From Sulfitobacter sp. SK011 (GTDB lineage: Bacteria; Pseudomonadota; Alphaproteobacteria; Rhodobacterales; Rhodobacteraceae), in NCBI RefSeq assembly GCF_003352065.1, contig NZ_CP025803.1:248001-312000 (forward strand): 64,000 bases of DNA, written 5' to 3'. The notes below the pieces were generated by a model. That model was given only the letters and a program-made list of their open reading frames with translations, made no database searches and was not told where the DNA came from. Below, one piece after another: positions 56,195-64,000 of the stretch. Numbering within the stretch: position 1 is the first letter of the stretch; each line of letters opens with the position of its first letter. Both the position numbers and the translations under genes were made by a program.

Positions 56195-56270
56195 GGGCCT
56201 GTAGCTCAGTTGGTAGAGCAACTGACTTTTAATCAGTAGGTCTCCGGTTCGAACCCGGACGGGCTCACCA
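56195..56270 (+). tRNA. tRNA-Lys (anticodon TTT)
   Basis: 76 bases. Acceptor gggcctg pairs with cgggctc allowing two G-T pairs, the D arm gctcagttggtagagc is standard, the anticodon arm actgacttttaatcagt has TTT, and the T arm is tccggttcgaacccgga. CCA is encoded. It divides core genes (left) from accessory DNA (right), a common integration site for mobile elements. Confidence 0.98.
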
Positions 56271-56277
56271 ATAAATC

Positions 56278-56311
56278 AAAGGGTTAGGTGGAATCGCGTA
56301 ACCCTTTCTTC
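56278..56311 (+). terminator. Terminator after tRNA-Lys
   Basis: Stem aaagggtta / taaccctttc (9 base pairs) with a 12-base loop, starting 8 bases after the tRNA and followed by ttcattt. The remaining bases to 56560 hold no supported gene. Confidence 0.7.
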
Positions 56312-56560
56312 ATTTCTAGTCTCTTTTTAGTCACTTGTTTGACGTTGTTTTCGGGTGATCTGCAATGTTCAGGTATAAGAGCGTTGCTCACGATTTCTGA
56401 TGCGCTTGCTGAAAAAACCCGGATTTGGGCGACCAAGTGATTTGTGTGCATTCCATGAACGCTCTCTCGCCACTTCAACTCCAAGCTGCTAGCCTTTCTC
56501 TGCCTGGGTATTGTCGTAACCTTGGGCATCGCGATGCTCTTCAGAGATGGAGAGATCGTG

Positions 56561-56746
56561 ATGAGGATACTTTCAAAACCCCAACTGAAGGAGTTGGTTC
56601 TGTATTCACCGCAACATGTCGCACGTCTGGAAAAGGCAGGCCTATTCCCCAAGCGGGTACAGCTGGGCCCGAACAGAGTGGGATGGGTCGAGGATGAAGT
56701 GCTGGACTGGCTTCAAACACGGATGGAGGGTCGCGAGGAGGCCTGA
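56561..56746 (+). CDS. AlpA-like excisionase/regulator (MerR-type helix-turn-helix)
   Basis: 61 residues from the ATG at 56561, with a ggagag site just upstream. It reads MRILSKPQLKELVLYSPQHVARLEKAG then FPKRVQLGPNRVGWVEDEVLDWLQTR, the short AlpA/phage_AlpA pattern in which a winged-type helix-turn-helix binds att-site or promoter DNA. AlpA proteins control integrase or transfer genes of integrated elements. No integrase is next to it. It is convergent with the cassette at 56819-60980, with two hairpins between. Confidence 0.9.
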   Translation: MRILSKPQLKELVLYSPQHVARLEKAGLFPKRVQLGPNRVGWVEDEVLDWLQTRMEGREEA

Positions 56747-56770
56747 CCGACACTCCTCATGTAGGAGTAT

Positions 56771-56806
56771 GGGTGGCCGGAGGTGCACACTTCGGCCACC
56801 CGTTTT
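56771..56806. terminator. Hairpin between convergent alpA-like and cassette genes
   Basis: Stem gggtggccg / cggccaccc (9 base pairs) with a 13-base loop and gtttt after it. A second small hairpin, actcct/aggagt, lies at 56752-56768. The position between two convergent stops suggests a two-way terminator. Confidence 0.7.
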
Positions 56807-56818
56807 CGACCAAGAGGT

Positions 56819-57742
56819 TCAGCCGGTCTTCAGACCAGATCGGGACAACAGCACTGGCGCGCTTTGGCATCTGGCCCAATTGTTCTCATAATGGGAACCG
56901 ATGGTGGTTTGAGCGGCCCTGTCATTCGGCATCACTTGCGCGCAGAAAAGGTTTTTTGCCGGGCCACCAAACTGGCCAACCAAGTCCAGAAACCGCTGTT
57001 CATTGCTGCGTCGCGAGAACACCCATAGAATTAACACCGTCGCCTTGAGGCCATAGTTGGCGCGGTGAATGTTCTGTTCAATCATCTGTCGGTACATCTC
57101 AATCGATGAGGCATAACTCTTGCGGGCCGCACTTGATGTCTTGGGTTCGGTTCCGCGATCTACTTCCAACATGAAGGCGCGATATCTACCACCGTAATCC
57201 AAGGCAAAAAGCTGATCCGGGATCAGTTTGCGACGGCCAATCGGAATAGTGAGGAAAGCTTGCTTGATGGCGAGGATTTCATGGGCTGGGATATACCGCA
57301 CGTCATCCTGCGCTGCCGCGATCTCAATCGCGCTGGTCACGCTGGAGACGGCAGCTCCATGGCCCCAATGCCCTGTTGGCCGCACGGCGGGTTCGGCCAG
57401 GCCGAGATCAATGAGATGAGCGCGCGCCTGTTTGGTCAGGTCATAGATGTAGGGGTTGAAGTCGGCGTGCTCGGTGAATCGCTGTTGACGCGGTAGCATC
57501 AAAAATCCACCGGCCCGCAATTTCTGCAATTGCCGCAGGCTTGTATCCCTGCAGCGGTGCGTGTCTTTGGTGAGTGCATGTAGATGCGCAGAGTTTAGTG
57601 GCCCGTGACGCTCAATATGCTTGAACCAGCGGATTTCACGAGGCGTGGGGCGCACATCGGCCAATGGAACGATGTGATGGAATGTTGCGCGCCCCAGGCT
57701 GTCGGTTTTTTTCTTGTGCTGCAGTGAATCTGTGTGGCTCAT
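56819..57742 (-). CDS. Replication-relaxation family-like protein
   Basis: 307 residues. The N-terminal part (about 30-105) looks like a winged helix: PTPREIRWFKHIERHGPLNS, then LRQLQKLRAGGFLM. The C-terminal part has KLIPDQLFALDYGGRYRAFMLEVDRGTEP, a segment typical of replication-relaxation proteins (PF13814), where it may form a nuclease-like or ATPase-partner fold. Such genes travel with VirD4/HerA-like ATPases in plasmids and islands. It is the last gene of the cassette, 19 bases after the ATPase gene. The biochemical role is not established. Confidence 0.8.
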   Translation of the reverse strand: MSHTDSLQHKKKTDSLGRATFHHIVPLADVRPTPREIRWFKHIERHGPLNSAHLHALTKDTHRCRDTSLRQLQKLRAGGFLMLPRQQRFTEHADFNPYIYDLTKQARAHLIDLGLAEPAVRPTGHWGHGAAVSSVTSAIEIAAAQDDVRYIPAHEILAIKQAFLTIPIGRRKLIPDQLFALDYGGRYRAFMLEVDRGTEPKTSSAARKSYASSIEMYRQMIEQNIHRANYGLKATVLILWVFSRRSNEQRFLDLVGQFGGPAKNLFCAQVMPNDRAAQTTIGSHYENNWARCQSAPVLLSRSGLKTG

Positions 57743-57761
57743 GTCGCCAGATTAGGCGGGC

Positions 57762-59837
57762 TCAAAGCTCTGGCGAAGGGTTCGCGGGATCGTCGGGTTC
57801 GTTTTCTTCTGGTGGATTCGGCCGCGTCTCATCCGATGTTCCGCTGTCTTCAGCCTTGCTCTGCCATGGTTCCGCATAGGCGTTGCGGCTGTGTTCCCGG
57901 ATTGCATCAATCTCAGCTTTTGTGGCGCGTTCCCGATTTTCCATAACAAAGAATGGAACGCTGATGGGCACGGCGCGGTCGGTTAATCCCCGCACAAAGG
58001 TGGCAAAAGTGCCCTTGGGCTGGCGCTGGATCAGATCGGCATCACACGACATTTGCCCCGCCAAGGCGCGCGCATCACGGGCTGAGACACCTCCGGCGAG
58101 TTTGATTGACGTGTTGGCTTCAAATGCTTCTTGCAGCCCGTTGCTGAGCTGGCCCAGGAACTGGTGCGCCATGATCATCCCGACGCGGTATTTGCGCGCC
58201 TGACTGAGGATGATGCCAATGTTCTGGTCGAAGTAATCATGCGCCTCATCGATGTAGATCATGGCAGGCAGGCGATCGCGCGCGGGCAGCGTGGCACGCT
58301 CTTGGGCGGCCTGAGTGATCAGAGCAATGAAGAAGCGGCCGAAGATCTCGGTGCCCTGTTCTTTCAGTAGTGATTTTGAGGTGTTGATCAGGATCAGCTT
58401 GCCTGCGTTCAATTCAGTGAACATGTCGAACTTCGACTGCGGGTTGGTAAACATCCGCTCGAAGGTCTGATTTTCCAGCACGCCATAGAGACGGCGCAGC
58501 ACTTGCGTTTTGGTGTTGGTGAATTCCTTGCTGTCGAACTCGGTTTCAAAGAATCGGCGCGGCGTGCCTTCCAGCTTGGCAATGTGATCGCGGTACTTTT
58601 CCGTGCCGCCGGGTTCCATCAGCTCGCGTAAGGTGTGGATCGTCGCGTCAGGAATATGAAACATCAGGCGCGTAACATAGCGAAAGACCACGGATTGCTT
58701 GGCGGTCATGCCCGCTGACAGCAGCGATCCCAGAACAAAGTCATAAAGCTCAATGATGGAATTGGTCAGCCGCTCACGTTCGAGGGCGTTGTAGTTTTCA
58801 AGGCGACCCTGGCCAACGGAGAACAGGTTGAGGCTGACCGGAAAGGCGATGTCTTCTGGATCAATCAGAACAATCCGTTCGGGTGGCAGGGTTTTCGCCT
58901 TCAGGATTGTATTGATCAGATCGCCCTGGCTGTCGATCACCACGACCGATTTGTCACCCCGCACCACATCTTCCAGATCGTTCGCCAGGAAGTATTGCAG
59001 GGTCTGGGTTTTGCCGTGACCCGATCCAGCCACAATGTGCATGTGTTCAAACCGGCTGTTTTCCGGGATCTCAAATGGGGTTCTGAGTCGGAACAATTCT
59101 TTCAAATGAGTGCCTGCCAGATAGGTCTCCACAACATCATCGCCCTTATAGTCGCTCGGGAAGATCGGCTGGGTGCGATTGGTCCGACTGAGATTAGCGT
59201 CAATCCGGTCCCGTAAGCGCTTGAAGTGGTTGTAGTCAGTGTCAGCAAAAAACGGTGCGATGACATTCTGTACCGCCTGCCCCAGTGGGTGCACAAACTG
59301 GGTCACATCGACCAGCACGTCGCCCTCAATCGGCGGCACGGCCTGTGCAATGGTGCCCAGGCTGTCCGAGATGACATCTAGTGCAGTCAAAACCATGACC
59401 CGGTCGCTGCGGGCCTGCCCGGATCGCGCCAGCATGTCGCGATACCGCGCGCCCTCAACGGTGTTGCAGAGTGCAGGCATTGGTGGGATTTCTGGACTCA
59501 AACCTTCGTCATTGAGCAAGGCGCGCCCGATCTCCAGCAATTGGATCTTGAGAGCCTCTGGCGTGTCTGGCGGCCAGTGATGCGACAGGGCGGCATCGAT
59601 CTCAGCGTCGCTCAGGCGCACCTGTCCGCTCAGCGCGTGGTTGTAGAGAATTTCCGTTTCCTCGCGGGCCAGACGCTCCAGACGTCGTGGGCTTTCTTTG
59701 TAGAGCCGATAGAAAACATAGGCCGGAATGCCGACCAGCAGAACCGGCGTAAGGAAAGCCGCCAGGGCGAGGATGCCGGAGATAATAAAGAAGGACAGGA
59801 TTAACCCATTGAAGTTATCCGAGTTTGAACCTGCCAT
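57762..59837 (-). CDS. VirD4/TraM-like type IV coupling ATPase
   Basis: 691 residues. Two N-terminal hydrophobic segments (about 11-42) anchor it in the membrane. A long accessory domain precedes the ATPase. Walker A is AGSGHGKTQT near residue 271 and Walker B AMIYIDEAHDYFD near 522; the C-terminal AHQFLGQLSNGLQEAF and ANTSIKLAGG match TraM-recognition/TraG-VirD4 ATPases. It is likely a hexameric DNA pump at the inner membrane. There is no relaxase or mating channel nearby. A disordered acidic tail rich in Pro/Glu ends it. Start overlaps the previous stop by one base (TGATG). Confidence 0.87.
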   Translation of the reverse strand: MAGSNSDNFNGLILSFFIISGILALAAFLTPVLLVGIPAYVFYRLYKESPRRLERLAREETEILYNHALSGQVRLSDAEIDAALSHHWPPDTPEALKIQLLEIGRALLNDEGLSPEIPPMPALCNTVEGARYRDMLARSGQARSDRVMVLTALDVISDSLGTIAQAVPPIEGDVLVDVTQFVHPLGQAVQNVIAPFFADTDYNHFKRLRDRIDANLSRTNRTQPIFPSDYKGDDVVETYLAGTHLKELFRLRTPFEIPENSRFEHMHIVAGSGHGKTQTLQYFLANDLEDVVRGDKSVVVIDSQGDLINTILKAKTLPPERIVLIDPEDIAFPVSLNLFSVGQGRLENYNALERERLTNSIIELYDFVLGSLLSAGMTAKQSVVFRYVTRLMFHIPDATIHTLRELMEPGGTEKYRDHIAKLEGTPRRFFETEFDSKEFTNTKTQVLRRLYGVLENQTFERMFTNPQSKFDMFTELNAGKLILINTSKSLLKEQGTEIFGRFFIALITQAAQERATLPARDRLPAMIYIDEAHDYFDQNIGIILSQARKYRVGMIMAHQFLGQLSNGLQEAFEANTSIKLAGGVSARDARALAGQMSCDADLIQRQPKGTFATFVRGLTDRAVPISVPFFVMENRERATKAEIDAIREHSRNAYAEPWQSKAEDSGTSDETRPNPPEENEPDDPANPSPEL

Positions 59838-60196
59838 CAGATTTCCACGACTGTGCGCGTGCCGGTCTCGGCATTGTCATCCAGCCAGGTTTTCATTTGC
59901 GCCATCACCGCCAAAAGGTTTTCTTCATATATCTTGGATTTTGAGGGCGTTGCGCAGAGGAAACGATCAATCCGCCCATCCATCAGATGTTCGACACGCA
60001 GCTCGAACTTCTCATCGCGCGCATCGTTTTTGGCATCCGCTGGACGGCGATCCACCAGTTTGGTTTTGAGCAATCCACGTTGTCTGATGATCTGTTTTTC
60101 CTCATGGGTAAAAGCGACCATCAAATGCACTTCGTGATAGGTCGTCTTGAAGATGAAACCCTTTCGAATGACCTCATGTGAGATGGAAACGCGCAT
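59837..60196 (-). CDS. Conserved-looking hypothetical protein of the ATPase cassette
   Basis: 119 residues, soluble, no recognised domain. Mostly charged, with FTHEEKQIIRQRGLLKTKLVDRR suggesting a short helix-rich stretch and HLMDGRIDRFLCATPSKSKIYEENL an alternating beta/alpha part. Its stop overlaps the ATPase start by one base, so the two are translationally coupled and may act as a complex. Function unknown. Confidence 0.75.
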   Translation of the reverse strand: MRVSISHEVIRKGFIFKTTYHEVHLMVAFTHEEKQIIRQRGLLKTKLVDRRPADAKNDARDEKFELRVEHLMDGRIDRFLCATPSKSKIYEENLLAVMAQMKTWLDDNAETGTRTVVEI

Positions 60197-60202
60197 GTGA
60201 AT

Positions 60203-60457
60203 TCAGCCTCGAAGGGTTTCGGCGTCTTCGAAGAAGACGACGGAAATATCACCCGCGAAAGCGGGTGAAGTCATGGCTTCAAAACGGCCTTTCATGTGAT
60301 GGTATGTTCCCAAATGTTCAGCGATGATCCCCCATACCTGATCCCCATAAAGGTTGGGGATATCGTACGGGGACCTCAGCTCAGGTTTCGTTGGATTCAG
60401 CAGGGAGCTTTCTTGCAGGCCGTGCCGCCAACATATCGATGTGTTCTTTGGCGGCAA
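60203..60457 (-). CDS. Small hypothetical protein of the ATPase cassette
   Basis: Up to 84 residues if started at the ATG at 60457, which overlaps the end of the upstream membrane-protein gene by 77 bases; a shorter start after that stop is possible (non-ATG, or ATG within the last 31 residues). The C-terminal half (YGDQVWGIIAEHLGTYHHMKGRFEAM, FAGDISVVFFEDAETL) reads as a folded domain. It is 6 bases upstream of the next gene. Existence is likely, start uncertain, function unknown. Confidence 0.5.
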   Translation of the reverse strand: MPPKNTSICWRHGLQESSLLNPTKPELRSPYDIPNLYGDQVWGIIAEHLGTYHHMKGRFEAMTSPAFAGDISVVFFEDAETLRG

Positions 60458-60980
60458 GTAACGTTTCGAATGGAATACCTTTGTACAGTAACTTGCCCTT
60501 TACGTCTCTGATTGTCTTGCCCCTGTAAACGGTACTCTGGTCTTCCAGCTGCGCCGGCTCGAGATCCTTGACCATTCGTCCTTGAGGTGACGTTTTGTCA
60601 GCTTGATCCACAAACGAACTTCTGGGTTCCTGTGCACTCTCTGTCTGCGCCGCCGCCGCGAAAGTCTGTGGCACTACACTTTGCAGTTTCAGGCCTTGCT
60701 TCGATACTTCCAGCTGATCACGCGAAATACTCAGCATCTGTTGCGTGTATTCGGCTGTATCCACGGTTGCCCGGCCCATTTGCACAAAGGCGACAAGGAT
60801 AAGCCCTGTAATGCCAATACCGATGCCTGGAACCATCGCAAGCAGGCCTGCGCCACTGCCACCATACTGAGAAGCCCCCGCAGCACCGATCAGTGCCACA
60901 ATCACTCCGACGACAACCACCGACCATGCCATGAATGCCAGAAAGCTAAAAAGTGATCTGGCAGCTTCGTATGAACGCAT
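60381..60980 (-). CDS. Two-helix inner-membrane protein of the ATPase cassette
   Basis: 199 residues from the ATG at 60980, with aaagga 7 bases upstream; the frame stays open to 61133 without good cause. Two hydrophobic segments (about 9-34 and 45-68) form a hairpin, followed by a helical region (GRATVDTAEYTQQMLSISRDQLEVSKQGL, likely coiled coil) and a soluble C-terminal tail that includes VYRGKTIRDVKGKLLYKGIPFETLLAAKEHID. First gene of the cassette. It may be the membrane partner of the ATPase. Function unknown. Confidence 0.75.
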   Translation of the reverse strand: MRSYEAARSLFSFLAFMAWSVVVVGVIVALIGAAGASQYGGSGAGLLAMVPGIGIGITGLILVAFVQMGRATVDTAEYTQQMLSISRDQLEVSKQGLKLQSVVPQTFAAAAQTESAQEPRSSFVDQADKTSPQGRMVKDLEPAQLEDQSTVYRGKTIRDVKGKLLYKGIPFETLLAAKEHIDMLAARPARKLPAESNET

Positions 60981-61479
60981 TGAAAATTCCTTTAAAAAAC
61001 CAATTCGGACACCCTGCGGCGTACAACCAAAACGTGTCAATGGAATTGTCGGTTCTGAGCATATTACTCGGAGGCTGCGAAAACACTCTGAGATCGTTCG
61101 TGACGCCAAAATCACGCGTAGCAGGTCGCACATCTCGGTTCAGGTTTTAGACAAGGCGCTCCTGAGATGGGTGCGGATGGGATGGATGTTTTGGTGGTAT
61201 CATCAACGGGCTGCAAAGCGTCAGTGGCGGGATGACGCGCGCGATCGGTCAGTACCTCAGAGAACCGAGGTTATTGTTTTTGTCTTATGCTCTGGACCTA
61301 TAAACGGGTCACAATTTCAACGGCAGCTTCCACCAGCACCAGACGTTCGTCGAATTCATCGCTATGACCGAGTTGCGGACTTTTGAGACATTCGCTGCTT
61401 TGGCACCAATGGCCGGTGTTGGCGCTTCGCGACGTTGATCATGGTCATGTGCGCTTCGTCTTTGGTAATCGGACTAGCT
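60981..61479. other. Intergenic stretch before the cassette, no supported gene
   Basis: Presumably holds the cassette promoter close to 60981. Short open frames on both strands have no recognisable protein features. 61364-61383 contains a 20-base sequence that recurs at 63790-63809. The stretch next to 61480 may be degenerate mobile-element DNA. Confidence 0.5.
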
Positions 61480-61734
61480 GAATACGCCGGGATGCAGCGA
61501 GCAAAGCGCAATGTTCGCCTGGAATACATCCAGCCCGGCAAGCCACAGCAGAACGCCTACATTGAGCGCTATAACCGCACGGTTCGTGGCGAATGGTTGG
61601 GGCAATACATCTTCGAAAACATTGAGGAAGCACAGGATCAAGCAACCGAATGGCTCTGGACTTACAACAACGAGCGACCCAACATGGGCATCGGCGGCAT
61701 GACACCCGCCATGAAACTGAAAACAGCCGCGTGA
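61480..61734 (+). pseudogene. IS3-family transposase, C-terminal remnant
   Basis: The frame codes the C-terminal part of an IS3-type (IS407-like) OrfB integrase: RLEYIQPGKPQQNAYIERYN with the last catalytic Glu of the DDE triad in NAYIERYN, then WLWTYNNERPNMGIGG and TPAMKLK. The first two Asp residues and orfA are missing. Upstream sequence to 61435 stays open but does not resemble a transposase, so the element is truncated at the 5' end. Confidence 0.88.
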
Positions 61735-61833: not shown

Positions 61834-62583
61834 TCAAAAGTTGCAGGACAATTCAAAATGGCTTTCGCATCCAATTTTCACCGGATTGTAGCACAAAACC
61901 TTCTTAGCTTCCTCAACGGTTGGTTTCTTGTTCGAAACAATAACCTTTGCGCCCTTGTAAATTATTTCGCCGTAATTGGTACTTTTCGTGTGGGTAAGCG
62001 AAAGACGGTACGGGTCATACCTGAAGCTTGCAATACAACCAGTTCGCGTTGGTGCCAAAACATGCGTGGCTTTGCAGCGTCGCGGACGATTAGACTTAGA
62101 GCACCCGTCGCGGGTCGCCTCCTCGACGGTGCGTCCCCGCCCAATTAGACCGACATTGGTAAAAATCACTGCTGGACTCGACAGATACCGCTGATATCTC
62201 TCACGGGCTTTGCTCACTTTGTCATAGTCAATTGCACCGCGCGAACCAGACTTGGGTTCCAGTGAATACGAAAAATAGTCATTGTCAGTTTGAGCTCGCA
62301 AAAAAGTTGTATTGAGCTCATACAAAATTCTAATGTTGCTTTCGTTACCTGGAAACTGTTCCAAGATGAGCTGCTTTGCAGCATTCGAAGTATCCAGATC
62401 GAGCACACCGGTTACTTCAACTTCATGACCGTAGTGGATCAAAATCTTTTGAATGCGCCTTACCTCAAACTTCGAAAGCTCTCTTGCTTCTGCGTCCGCT
62501 AAAAATGCCAACGTCGAGAAAGCAATACAGAAAGAAGCGGTTAGAAGTTTCTTAATTGTTTTGCGAATTGACAGAGAACTCAT
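61834..62583 (-). CDS. Secreted protein of unknown function
   Basis: 249 residues from the ATG at 62583; the frame is open to 62628. A strong signal peptide (about 1-33: basic start, KKLLTASFCIAFSTLAFLADAEA). The next 60 residues (LSKFEVRRIQKILIHYGHEVEVTGVLDL) resemble a peptidoglycan-binding-like helical repeat. The C-terminal half has four or more spaced Cys (DGCSKSN, RRCKATH, TGCIASF, VLCYN, GCESHFELSC), reminiscent of DUF4189-type proteins, which suggests disulfides in the periplasm. Codon use is more AT-rich than in core genes, hinting at transfer. No homologue is recognised with certainty. Confidence 0.7.
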   Translation of the reverse strand: MSSLSIRKTIKKLLTASFCIAFSTLAFLADAEARELSKFEVRRIQKILIHYGHEVEVTGVLDLDTSNAAKQLILEQFPGNESNIRILYELNTTFLRAQTDNDYFSYSLEPKSGSRGAIDYDKVSKARERYQRYLSSPAVIFTNVGLIGRGRTVEEATRDGCSKSNRPRRCKATHVLAPTRTGCIASFRYDPYRLSLTHTKSTNYGEIIYKGAKVIVSNKKPTVEEAKKVLCYNPVKIGCESHFELSCNF

Positions 62584-62628
62584 TGTACTTACTCCATTCA
62601 TCCGAACAGCTGCACTCAACTTGTTCAA

Positions 62629-64000
62629 CTTGATCGTTACTATTTAGCGGACGCATCTTTTGATGCCTTCCACTCACGCCAGGTAATACTCGAGTATGCT
62701 GCAGCCAAAATCAACTGTGGCATTCGGTGGATTTCTTTGAGCACCTTAGGCGTTGGCAAAAGTCAGCAAGCACGCGTTGACGCGGATACGCTGGCTCGAG
62801 GTGCGCCTTGCTGGCATGACACCCGCGGCACTTATTGGACCGCACAATACGCGGACACACCCTATTTTTTGACAAATGTGATCTGGTTCACAGACAAACG
62901 CCGAAGCGCATTGTAGTACCATTTAAAAGAAACACGGCATCAACCTCGGAGAACCAGAAAATGCAACGCCGCAAACAAATTCATACCCAGAGACTCAGTC
63001 AGCCATCAGGCTACCCCAACTCAATTGCGCGTCAGGTGTTTGAACGCATTCTCAACGCCATACGCCAGAGCATCGAGATCCAGATGAAGGTGAGCCAATA
63101 TCACTGACGGTTGGTGAGCAAGAAGTTCGTCTCATACCAAAAGCAGAGGCGAGGGCCCTGACTCTGTCGGATATCTGCAAGAGTATCTGTAGAGTCTTTT
63201 TTGGGTTAAATATCTGAGCAAATCCAGAGAATACCCAGAAAATACATTGTACCTAATTTTTCCCTTTCAAGGGCTCCGGAGATCTTTTTTGGTTTGTATC
63301 TCGTTGGCCGTAGCCACTGGCGCAATCCTCATAACGGAAATCCAGACCTTCAGTCAGTTCTTACAGAAGGCCAGGATCAACCGACTGATAGCCAATTGCT
63401 AACAATCAGTTCCAATTTTTTCCCAAAATGCCACAATTTCTACGATATGCCGCCGCTTTTCCATGAGAGGCACAACTGTGCAACGCATTCAAGGTTCTGG
63501 GCAATGATGGTAGCTGGCAAGTTCATTCTGACACATATCGAAATTCATGCTGTATCGCTACGTGCAGTAAATTATGCACACGAACCATATGGATCACCTG
63601 CCGCTCATCTGCGTCGTCTGCTTAATATTGGACGTGGTGAGCAGCCAGGAGGTTCCTTTGGAAGGGCGATGGCAGCGCAGTCAAATGTTTCCAGGGGCTC
63701 CACCGCCGAAATGGATCGGGACCTCTAAACAGGTCACGTATGCAACGACAGCACCGCCCATAGAGCAGACACTGGGGAAAAACACGGCCATGACCGAGTT
63801 GCGGACTTTCCAGTCGTTCATTTTTCGGGCTTCGCTCGCGCAGCACTTTCTCGCAGTCGCGGCACATTTGTTGTTGCAACGCAGCGAGCGTTGTCGAGGC
63901 GGTCATTCATGGGCTGCTGTATCTGACGAAATTTTTGTGACCAGTCTGGCAATAGAGCGGGATACGTTCAGGCCAGTGGGTTTAACAAATTTGCCCTACC
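62629..64000. other. About 1.4 kb without a supported gene, apparently decayed accessory DNA
   Basis: Open frames here (62835-63107 and 63294-63728 on the plus strand, 63622-63906 on the minus strand) lack ribosome sites, family motifs and the local codon pattern. 63170-63260 is AT-rich and non-coding in look. 63790-63809 repeats the 20-base sequence of 61364-61383. Probably remains of mobile elements or old genes. Confidence 0.55.

Follow-up and report, generated by a model that had tools for sequence, protein, structure and literature searches.

A truncated tRNA-associated element of Sulfitobacter sp. SK011 as a member of a likely mobilizable island family with a candidate relaxase, coupling ATPases and transfer origin

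Introduction

Mobilizable elements that possess a VirD4 coupling protein of their own along with a MobC relaxase are known from two streptococcal integrative and mobilizable elements (IMEs) and a few plasmids (PMC5704250, PMC5357655). CONJscan assigns the family PF13814 to MobC, and streptococcal IME class 8 combines a serine integrase, VirD4 and a PF13814/MobC protein (PMC5357655). The present work concerns a stretch of 64,000 nucleotides from Sulfitobacter sp. SK011 (NZ_CP025803.1, positions 248,001 to 312,000), hereafter the window, in which a minus-strand unit with a VirD4/TrwB-type ATPase (ATPase 1) and a PF13814 protein lies next to a tRNA-Lys gene. The unit belongs to an element which, judging from sequence comparison, has likely moved as an IME with its own relaxase, coupling ATPases and origin of transfer (oriT).

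Like class 8, the family is integrated, lacks a mating pore, has its own VirD4-type ATPase with a PF13814 protein, and carries a serine recombinase. Unlike class 8, it belongs to alphaproteobacteria, occupies tRNA sites by means of tyrosine integrases of the P4 type, and has two ATPases. It also carries defence cargo and genes for XRE, DUF3768, ArdC and a RuvC-like protein (the last named by eye).

Among the MOBC relaxases, TraX of pAD1/pTEF1 and MobC of CloDF13 are described as binding a site of direct repeats away from nic (PMC12857230). However, these belong to plasmids, whereas the family here is tRNA-integrated, and the profile similarity of its PF13814 protein to TraX is not significant. 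A CloDF13 mob gene gave no PF13814 match and looks ATPase-like. Salmonella genomic island 1, for which the mobilization proteins MpsA/MpsB are reported, and other mobilizable islands are integrated and moved by the conjugation machinery of a helper, as is proposed for the family here. P4-type satellites and islands are known to carry P4 Int and AlpA near tRNA genes. The family here shares this arrangement, but no phage structural family is among its named conserved gene clusters. No description of this alphaproteobacterial family came up in searches of the openly licensed literature.

Three copies in one genome

ATPase 1 is present three times in the single-contig Sulfitobacter genome (contig C1), with 99-100% identity (Table 1). 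The copies lie near different tRNA genes, Lys(TTT), Leu(CAG) and Phe(GAA), and their DNA is 94-98% identical over 3.6-3.9 kb. Copy 2, at about 233.2-246.2 kb of C1, also has genes for a P4-type integrase, a second ATPase (ATPase 2; PF10412, 44.3 bits, cut-off 20.5), an XRE regulator, a large serine recombinase and an ArdC-type antirestriction protein, as well as an open reading frame (ORF) that looks RuvC-like by eye and has no Pfam match. At a fourth site (C1:4132455-4139073), only the other half of the element is present, with its DUF3768 gene intact.

The homology between the window copy and copy 2 stops at genome position 309259 (window 61259), near a transposase remnant. Similarly, copy 3 breaks off within the gene for a 119-amino-acid protein, near another transposase-like ORF. 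What the window holds at tRNA-Lys is the truncated half of such an element. It has neither an integrase ORF nor a near distal attachment (att) site, and because these, ATPase 2 and the rest have been lost, it has probably become unable to excise on its own. Between the copies, the ratio of nonsynonymous to synonymous substitution rates is 0.16-0.19 for ATPase 1 and for the PF13814 gene (which does not differ between copies 1 and 2), suggesting purifying selection on both; ATPase 2 has 0.06 and ArdC 0.21.

The 3' half of the tRNA-Lys recurs at C1:1873742-1873786 (45 bp, one mismatch), outside any tRNA found there and 1.57 Mb away from the tRNA-Lys. A tRNA-Thr gene lies at a distance of about 190 bp, and no integrase was recognised next to this repeat. 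An earlier note on this DNA had proposed looking for such a repeat beyond position 64,000; a repeat exists, though not as a near distal att site. Copies 2 and 3 share a tRNA-Phe 3' half from the anticodon loop onwards, which in copy 2 has a gap of two bases close to the end. Despite this half, copy 2 now adjoins a tRNA-Leu, of which the genome holds no second copy, and an integrase. A 30-base core of the tRNA-Phe half is found identically at C1:1077551, next to another P4-type integrase. Owing to the displaced tRNA-Phe and tRNA-Lys halves, the copies bear the marks of integration at tRNA sites followed by rearrangement.

Complete elements in relatives

Loci were fetched from named genomes for 80 of the 108 that qualified. 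The Rhodobacterales-type set of 33 is made up of the first 32 of the list and L053, and is defined by rank and by the type of membrane protein and 119-amino-acid protein, not by taxonomy alone. The gene for the 119-amino-acid protein lies directly upstream of ATPase 1 in 32/33 loci of this set (44 of the 80 fetched), and the PF13814 gene directly downstream in 31/33 (55 of the 80); the membrane-protein family is present in 32 of the 80. The neighbours of ATPase 1 are, as the earlier note had asked to be checked, not random. Within a sample of 295 genomes of the bacterial family, ATPase 1 was detected at E<=1e-50 in 5, the genome under study included (one 40% identical, one partial), a sporadic occurrence as expected of mobile DNA.

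For nine relatives, the region could be put together from stretches that overlap. Direct repeats of a tRNA 3' end surround the element in six of them, at sizes of 20.7-32.8 kb; Phaeobacter marinintestinus, Leisingera ANG59 and Erythrobacter AP23 are among these bounded relatives. The repeats are: Leu(CAG), 23 bp; Gly, 46 bp with 4 mismatches; Met, 48 bp with 1 mismatch; Asn, 49 bp; Asn, 48 bp; and Leu(GAG), 15 bp, the last (in G296) being weak. Of the remaining three, G310 had no att repeat, G308 one of 14 bp only, and G304 no tRNA. In each of the six bounded elements there is a single integrase (of the copy-2 type), a single PF13814 gene and a single XRE gene, along with two ATPases and one or more serine-recombinase ORFs. 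One of the six lacks the RuvC-like gene, and one lacks DUF3768. All six integrases match PF13356 and PF00589; some lie between alpA and the att site next to it, the others at the far end. An integrase of its own and att sites, as expected of an IME, are found in the six relatives, the window copy having no integrase ORF and no near distal att site. The association with tRNA genes, another point raised beforehand, extends beyond these: in 9 of the 40 loci that have alpA, the gene follows a tRNA of the same strand by no more than 600 bp, where 0.14 would be expected, and the tRNAs concerned are those for Met, Leu, Thr, Phe, Gln and Gly.

A stand-alone minimal module, as proposed in the earlier note, was rejected, since what is missing from the window copy is present in copy 2 and in the relatives, where the unit makes up only half of a larger element. 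The suggestion of a minimal mobilisable element survives in part, the element being tRNA-anchored and likely mobilisable; it is not minimal and contains a relaxase candidate of its own. A phage or satellite was also considered, but a pattern-based scan of viral contigs gave only one relative, on a 34-kb contig where the gene order of the matching region is that of the Phaeobacter island. As for a plasmid-borne system, one close plasmid match was obtained, and 28 remote ones at less than 60% identity; this, too, was rejected.

Two further observations were made among the relatives. Behind the Phaeobacter element, a third tRNA-Asn repeat and an integrase-like gene (G301, C23:536131-546506, L118) seem to mark a second element in tandem. 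At remote loci in Reyranella, Ramlibacter, Patescibacteria and others (L083-L088, L090, L091, L093), an ATPase relative of about 890-960 amino acids is paired with one of about 400-480, and a PF13814-type profile found no relaxase gene there.

Co-inheritance of the unit

Co-inheritance was assessed in the Rhodobacterales-type set as the correlation of pairwise identities with those of ATPase 1 (Mantel test). The PF13814 protein (r=0.74), the membrane protein (0.71) and the 119-amino-acid protein (0.65) correlate closely, at p=0.001 each. ATPase 2 (r=0.43, p=0.019), AlpA (0.38, p=0.030) and DUF3768 (0.24, p=0.049) follow at lower values, then the RuvC-like protein (0.18, p=0.052) and XRE (0.13, p=0.108). 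No correlation was seen for the serine recombinase (r=-0.12, p=0.707, 15 loci) or the integrase (-0.05, p=0.642, 8 loci). Because the partners of the unit correlate with ATPase 1 and these two recombinases do not, the four genes form a module and the recombinases are exchanged. The five-gene module put forward earlier is upheld as a co-inherited unit for these four; the fifth member, the ORF at 60203-60457, is judged not to be a gene, as described below.

A conserved site as candidate oriT

The region between the membrane-protein and 119-amino-acid genes is occupied by a conserved non-coding site, which is likely the transfer origin. In 28 loci and the window, it consists of an inverted-repeat box (ACCCCCATA ... 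TATGGGGGT), followed by AACAT-like words and then by a box of the TGAC(T/A)T type, mostly TGACTTCA, with a hairpin. In the window, the inverted repeat lies at 60330-60373, the TGACTTCA box at 60266-60275 (with two flanking bases) and the hairpin at 60249-60268, the AACAT-like words being phased by 10 bp. Over the sequences compared, such words are spaced by 10 bp in 30 cases, where shuffles give 0.26. Of the cells of the inverted repeat, 89.9% are paired, and sliding lowers this to 28-57.5%; the hairpin beats its shuffles (p<=0.05) in 12/29 sequences, against 0/29 for a control stretch. Conserved non-coding repeats and an inverted repeat stand beside the relaxase unit, as expected of an oriT.

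In all 30 sequences (one of them a duplicate contig), the two end blocks are separated by 83, 84 or 85 bp, and because of this variation the reading frame across the element shifts. The register used by the 84-amino-acid ORF in the window is open in 15/30 and closed in 15/30, and 11/30 have no open frame across the element. With no frame kept, the ORF was rejected as a gene; its translated profile matches in 28 loci because the underlying DNA is conserved. Of the two small unknown proteins noted earlier, only the 119-amino-acid one thus stands.

A sequence model (R1), built from 29 sequences with the window among them, matches window positions 60254-60373 at 80.6 bits and finds the element in 31/33 loci, including L026, L027 and L040 (49-69 bits), which had no part in building it; it also matches in L077. 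There was no match in L025, where another ATPase ORF lies upstream instead, or in L044, where the contig ends 366 bp above the 119-amino-acid gene. Among the 295 family genomes, matches of at least 70 bits are confined to five places in four genomes (two of which, G213 and G267, appear to be the genomes of the training loci L016 and L023), all by the 119-amino-acid gene or its remnant. An apparent orphan oriT in G018 was dismissed, as it adjoins a remnant of the 119-amino-acid type. Of six weak matches (17.7-24.2 bits), the two inspected lie by ribosomal-protein-type genes, as judged by eye, and were taken as chance. At loci of the second type, YGACTTCA occurs upstream of the partner gene of the ATPase in 13/37, against 0.6 in mononucleotide shuffles, and some of these 13 also carry the same CCCCA boxes; the other 24 are without the word.

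The candidate relaxase and ATPase 1

The PF13814 protein is likely a relaxase. It is a member of PF13814, the family assigned to MobC by CONJscan, and its layout appears to be a winged helix with a likely PD-(D/E)XK-type domain, in which D176, E193 and D/E195 are kept in 55/55 aligned sequences. The VIA list covers only the winged helix, and its outcome without a nuclease is no evidence. TraX of pTEF1 is also a PF13814 member (28.5 bits, cut-off 25.3) with a coupling-protein gene just upstream, and its D152, E170 and E172 form a D, ExE/D motif spaced similarly. The earlier view that the element lacks a relaxase and borrows those of other elements hence gives way to a relaxase candidate of its own.

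The fold of ATPase 1, with a Walker motif, is that of TrwB/VirD4, and TrwB comes first among its structural neighbours; the VirD4-like ATPase read from the sequence at the outset is supported by this comparison. Sequence searches of the PDB gave no match for either protein.

The phased repeats of the conserved site resemble iterons, and the PF13814 protein has a weak PHROG match to 'replication initiation by nicking' (9.2e-4). It could accordingly be imagined that this protein and the ATPase act inside the cell in replicating, maintaining or segregating a circle, with the DNA element as a replication origin or binding site. The coupling-protein fold, the long N-terminal helix and the membrane partners of ATPase 1 speak against such a role, as does the ArdC-type antirestriction gene in copy 2, and it is held to be quite improbable.

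Proposed transfer and the mating pore

According to the preferred reading, that of an IME, the integrase and AlpA would release the element in circular form. The phased repeats would then be bound by the PF13814 relaxase, which would nick close to the box with TGACTTCA and the hairpin. Anchored through its membrane partners, and perhaps with the aid of ATPase 2, ATPase 1 would then feed the relaxase-DNA complex to the mating pore of another element, and the circle would re-integrate at a tRNA gene. The slot between the relaxase gene and alpA serves relatives for cargo, which in the cases checked is likely anti-phage defence genes.

Several observations weigh against this reading. For the transfer origin, the window register of the 84-amino-acid ORF is open in half of the 30 sequences, and the hairpin is not significant in 17/29. 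Covariation in the inverted repeat is weak (shuffles reached the paired cells in 72/500, the score in 68/500 and the double changes in 24/500), and because of this the repeat is a conserved palindrome and not a proven secondary structure. For the relaxase, the nuclease domain has only weak fold matches, the best Foldseek E being 0.01 and none reaching 0.001, and hhalign against the pAD1-type TraX, in the winged-helix part, is not significant (E 0.017, probability 2.6%). ATPase 1 stays below the Pfam cut-offs for type IV coupling proteins (T4CPs; PF02534, 18.3 of 20.1; PF10412, 16.9 of 20.5) and aligns only weakly with the coupling protein of pTEF1. MOB-suite typed a Sulfitobacter plasmid that carries the unit as non-mobilizable, and the serine recombinase could be the mover. 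Lastly, a resident helper was not seen in the genome itself, which has no VirB4 domain, as is the case for 7 of 15 other genomes.

The survey of the pore fits a mobilizable element and also leaves room for a pore-less machine. VirB4 (PF03135) is absent from the six bounded elements, other pore genes not having been searched for, and it is found elsewhere in the genome in 8 of the 16 genomes searched, of which G213 and G301 are probably one and most are drafts whose plasmids may be missing. No complete conjugation set was seen adjoining the unit, in agreement with the earlier note. The genomes without VirB4, the two motors in 6/6 bounded elements and the co-evolution of the membrane partners with the motor would be in keeping with self-sufficient transfer by two T4CP/HerA-type motors with membrane and small proteins, without a type IV mating pore. 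However, no outer-membrane or pilus-like gene was recognised, though no model search was made, and half of the genomes searched do have VirB4 elsewhere; such a machine is considered quite improbable. That a widespread alphaproteobacterial class of tRNA-hopping defence carriers, equipped with a restriction-endonuclease-type relaxase, a conserved oriT and a membrane-anchored motor pair, moves DNA in the absence of a classical type IV pore, as the 8 of 16 genomes without VirB4 might allow, is likewise unlikely.

If the IME reading is true, a large family of islands that can escape standard typing has an identifiable relaxase, coupling protein and oriT, and its mobility becomes testable. The islands would be a vehicle that may spread anti-phage defence genes among alphaproteobacteria of sea and soil, and the short conserved oriT signature could be used to find them by sequence.

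Probable defence genes as cargo

The slot between the relaxase gene and alpA is empty in the window. In three relatives (G295, G301 and G310, the ends of the last not found), ten slot genes next to alpA were picked by eye and all ten match PADLOC families: IetA/IetS; PDC-S60 with a DNA methylase; and SspA-D with PbeA/PbeC. As the genes were picked, 10/10 is not a rate. The relatives checked thus likely carry anti-phage defence genes, which bears on the association with defence islands that the earlier note had wished to see examined. In the bounded element of G298, by eye, the far slot holds genes that resemble those for metal efflux.

Defence systems are known to include HerA-class motors together with nucleases, some being structural neighbours here, and in PADLOC ATPase 1 itself matches mad8 (1.2e-10) and, more weakly, DndH twice, matches that would suit any HerA-class motor. 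The ATPase and nuclease might on these grounds be taken for an anti-phage system residing on islands. TrwB, nevertheless, tops the structural neighbours, the oriT-like element accompanies the pair in 31/33 loci, and the recognised defence genes sit in a separate slot. With its PADLOC signals this weak, the idea of a defence pump, raised at the outset, was rejected and is most improbable.

Genes of the window and minor observations

The complete tRNA-Lys with an AlpA-like gene on its 3' side, and the convergence of that gene with the minus-strand unit, were confirmed as first described (Table 1). The alpA-like ORF likely starts at ATG 56561, and the membrane protein, judging from homology, probably near 60980 and not at 61133. 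Substitutions in the alpA-like ORF amount to 34/24/89 by codon position (summed over the 5 readable of 10 fetched relatives).

Table 1. Features of the window (window coordinates unless marked C1) and copies of ATPase 1
Feature	Position	Strand	Evidence or remark
tRNA-Lys(TTT)	56195-56270	+	ARAGORN; Rfam tRNA 72.5 bits; likely integration target, attL side
Putative att core, tRNA-Lys 3' half (45 bp)	56226-56270	+	
alpA-like excisionase/regulator	56522-56746	+	PF05930 34.6 bits (cut-off 21), 1.7e-8
Terminator-like hairpin 3' of alpA, between convergent genes	56769-56803	+	fold 56745-56815: -34.2 kcal/mol, z -4.79
PF13814 (Replic_Relax) protein, likely relaxase	56819-57742	-	65.2 bits, cut-off 25.3
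ATPase 1, T4CP/HerA-class motor	57762-59837	-	long N-terminal helix (likely membrane)
119-amino-acid protein	59837-60196	-	start-coupled to ATPase 1
Candidate oriT	60249-60376	-	between membrane-protein and 119-amino-acid genes
ORF of 84 amino acids	60203-60457	-	overlaps candidate oriT; judged spurious
Membrane protein	60381-61133	-	first gene of minus-strand unit
IS3/IS481-type transposase remnant	61435-61734	+	near element break; PF13683 1.2e-22
ATPase 1, window copy	C1:305765-307837		
ATPase 1, copy 2	C1:241262-243334		
ATPase 1, copy 3	C1:968589-970661		

The Rfam family RF02649, 'Ruegeria trans44 sRNA' (small RNA), matches the alpA region at 56527-56793 with 302 bits, and is over its cut-off in 16/295 family genomes. 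Because the region codes, judging from the substitutions by codon position, and ends in the terminator-like hairpin, the trans44 family may really be an alpA mRNA. Near the break point, an ORF of 264 amino acids (61834-62628) has no Pfam or NCBIfam match.

Elsewhere in the genome, a tRNA-Phe and a distal tRNA-Phe half with a P4-type integrase enclose about 110 kb (C1:967071-1077593), far more than in the bounded relatives. Beside copy 3, consecutive ORFs at C1:974564-981742 look caspase-like by eye; the only one scanned (978498-980138) matches Peptidase_C14 at 1.8e-39. An ORF that by eye resembles a diverged PF13814 gene, close to a C-terminal ATPase fragment (C1:224692-225501), and a fourth alpA/trans44 site (C1:211715-211979) hint at an older, decayed element.

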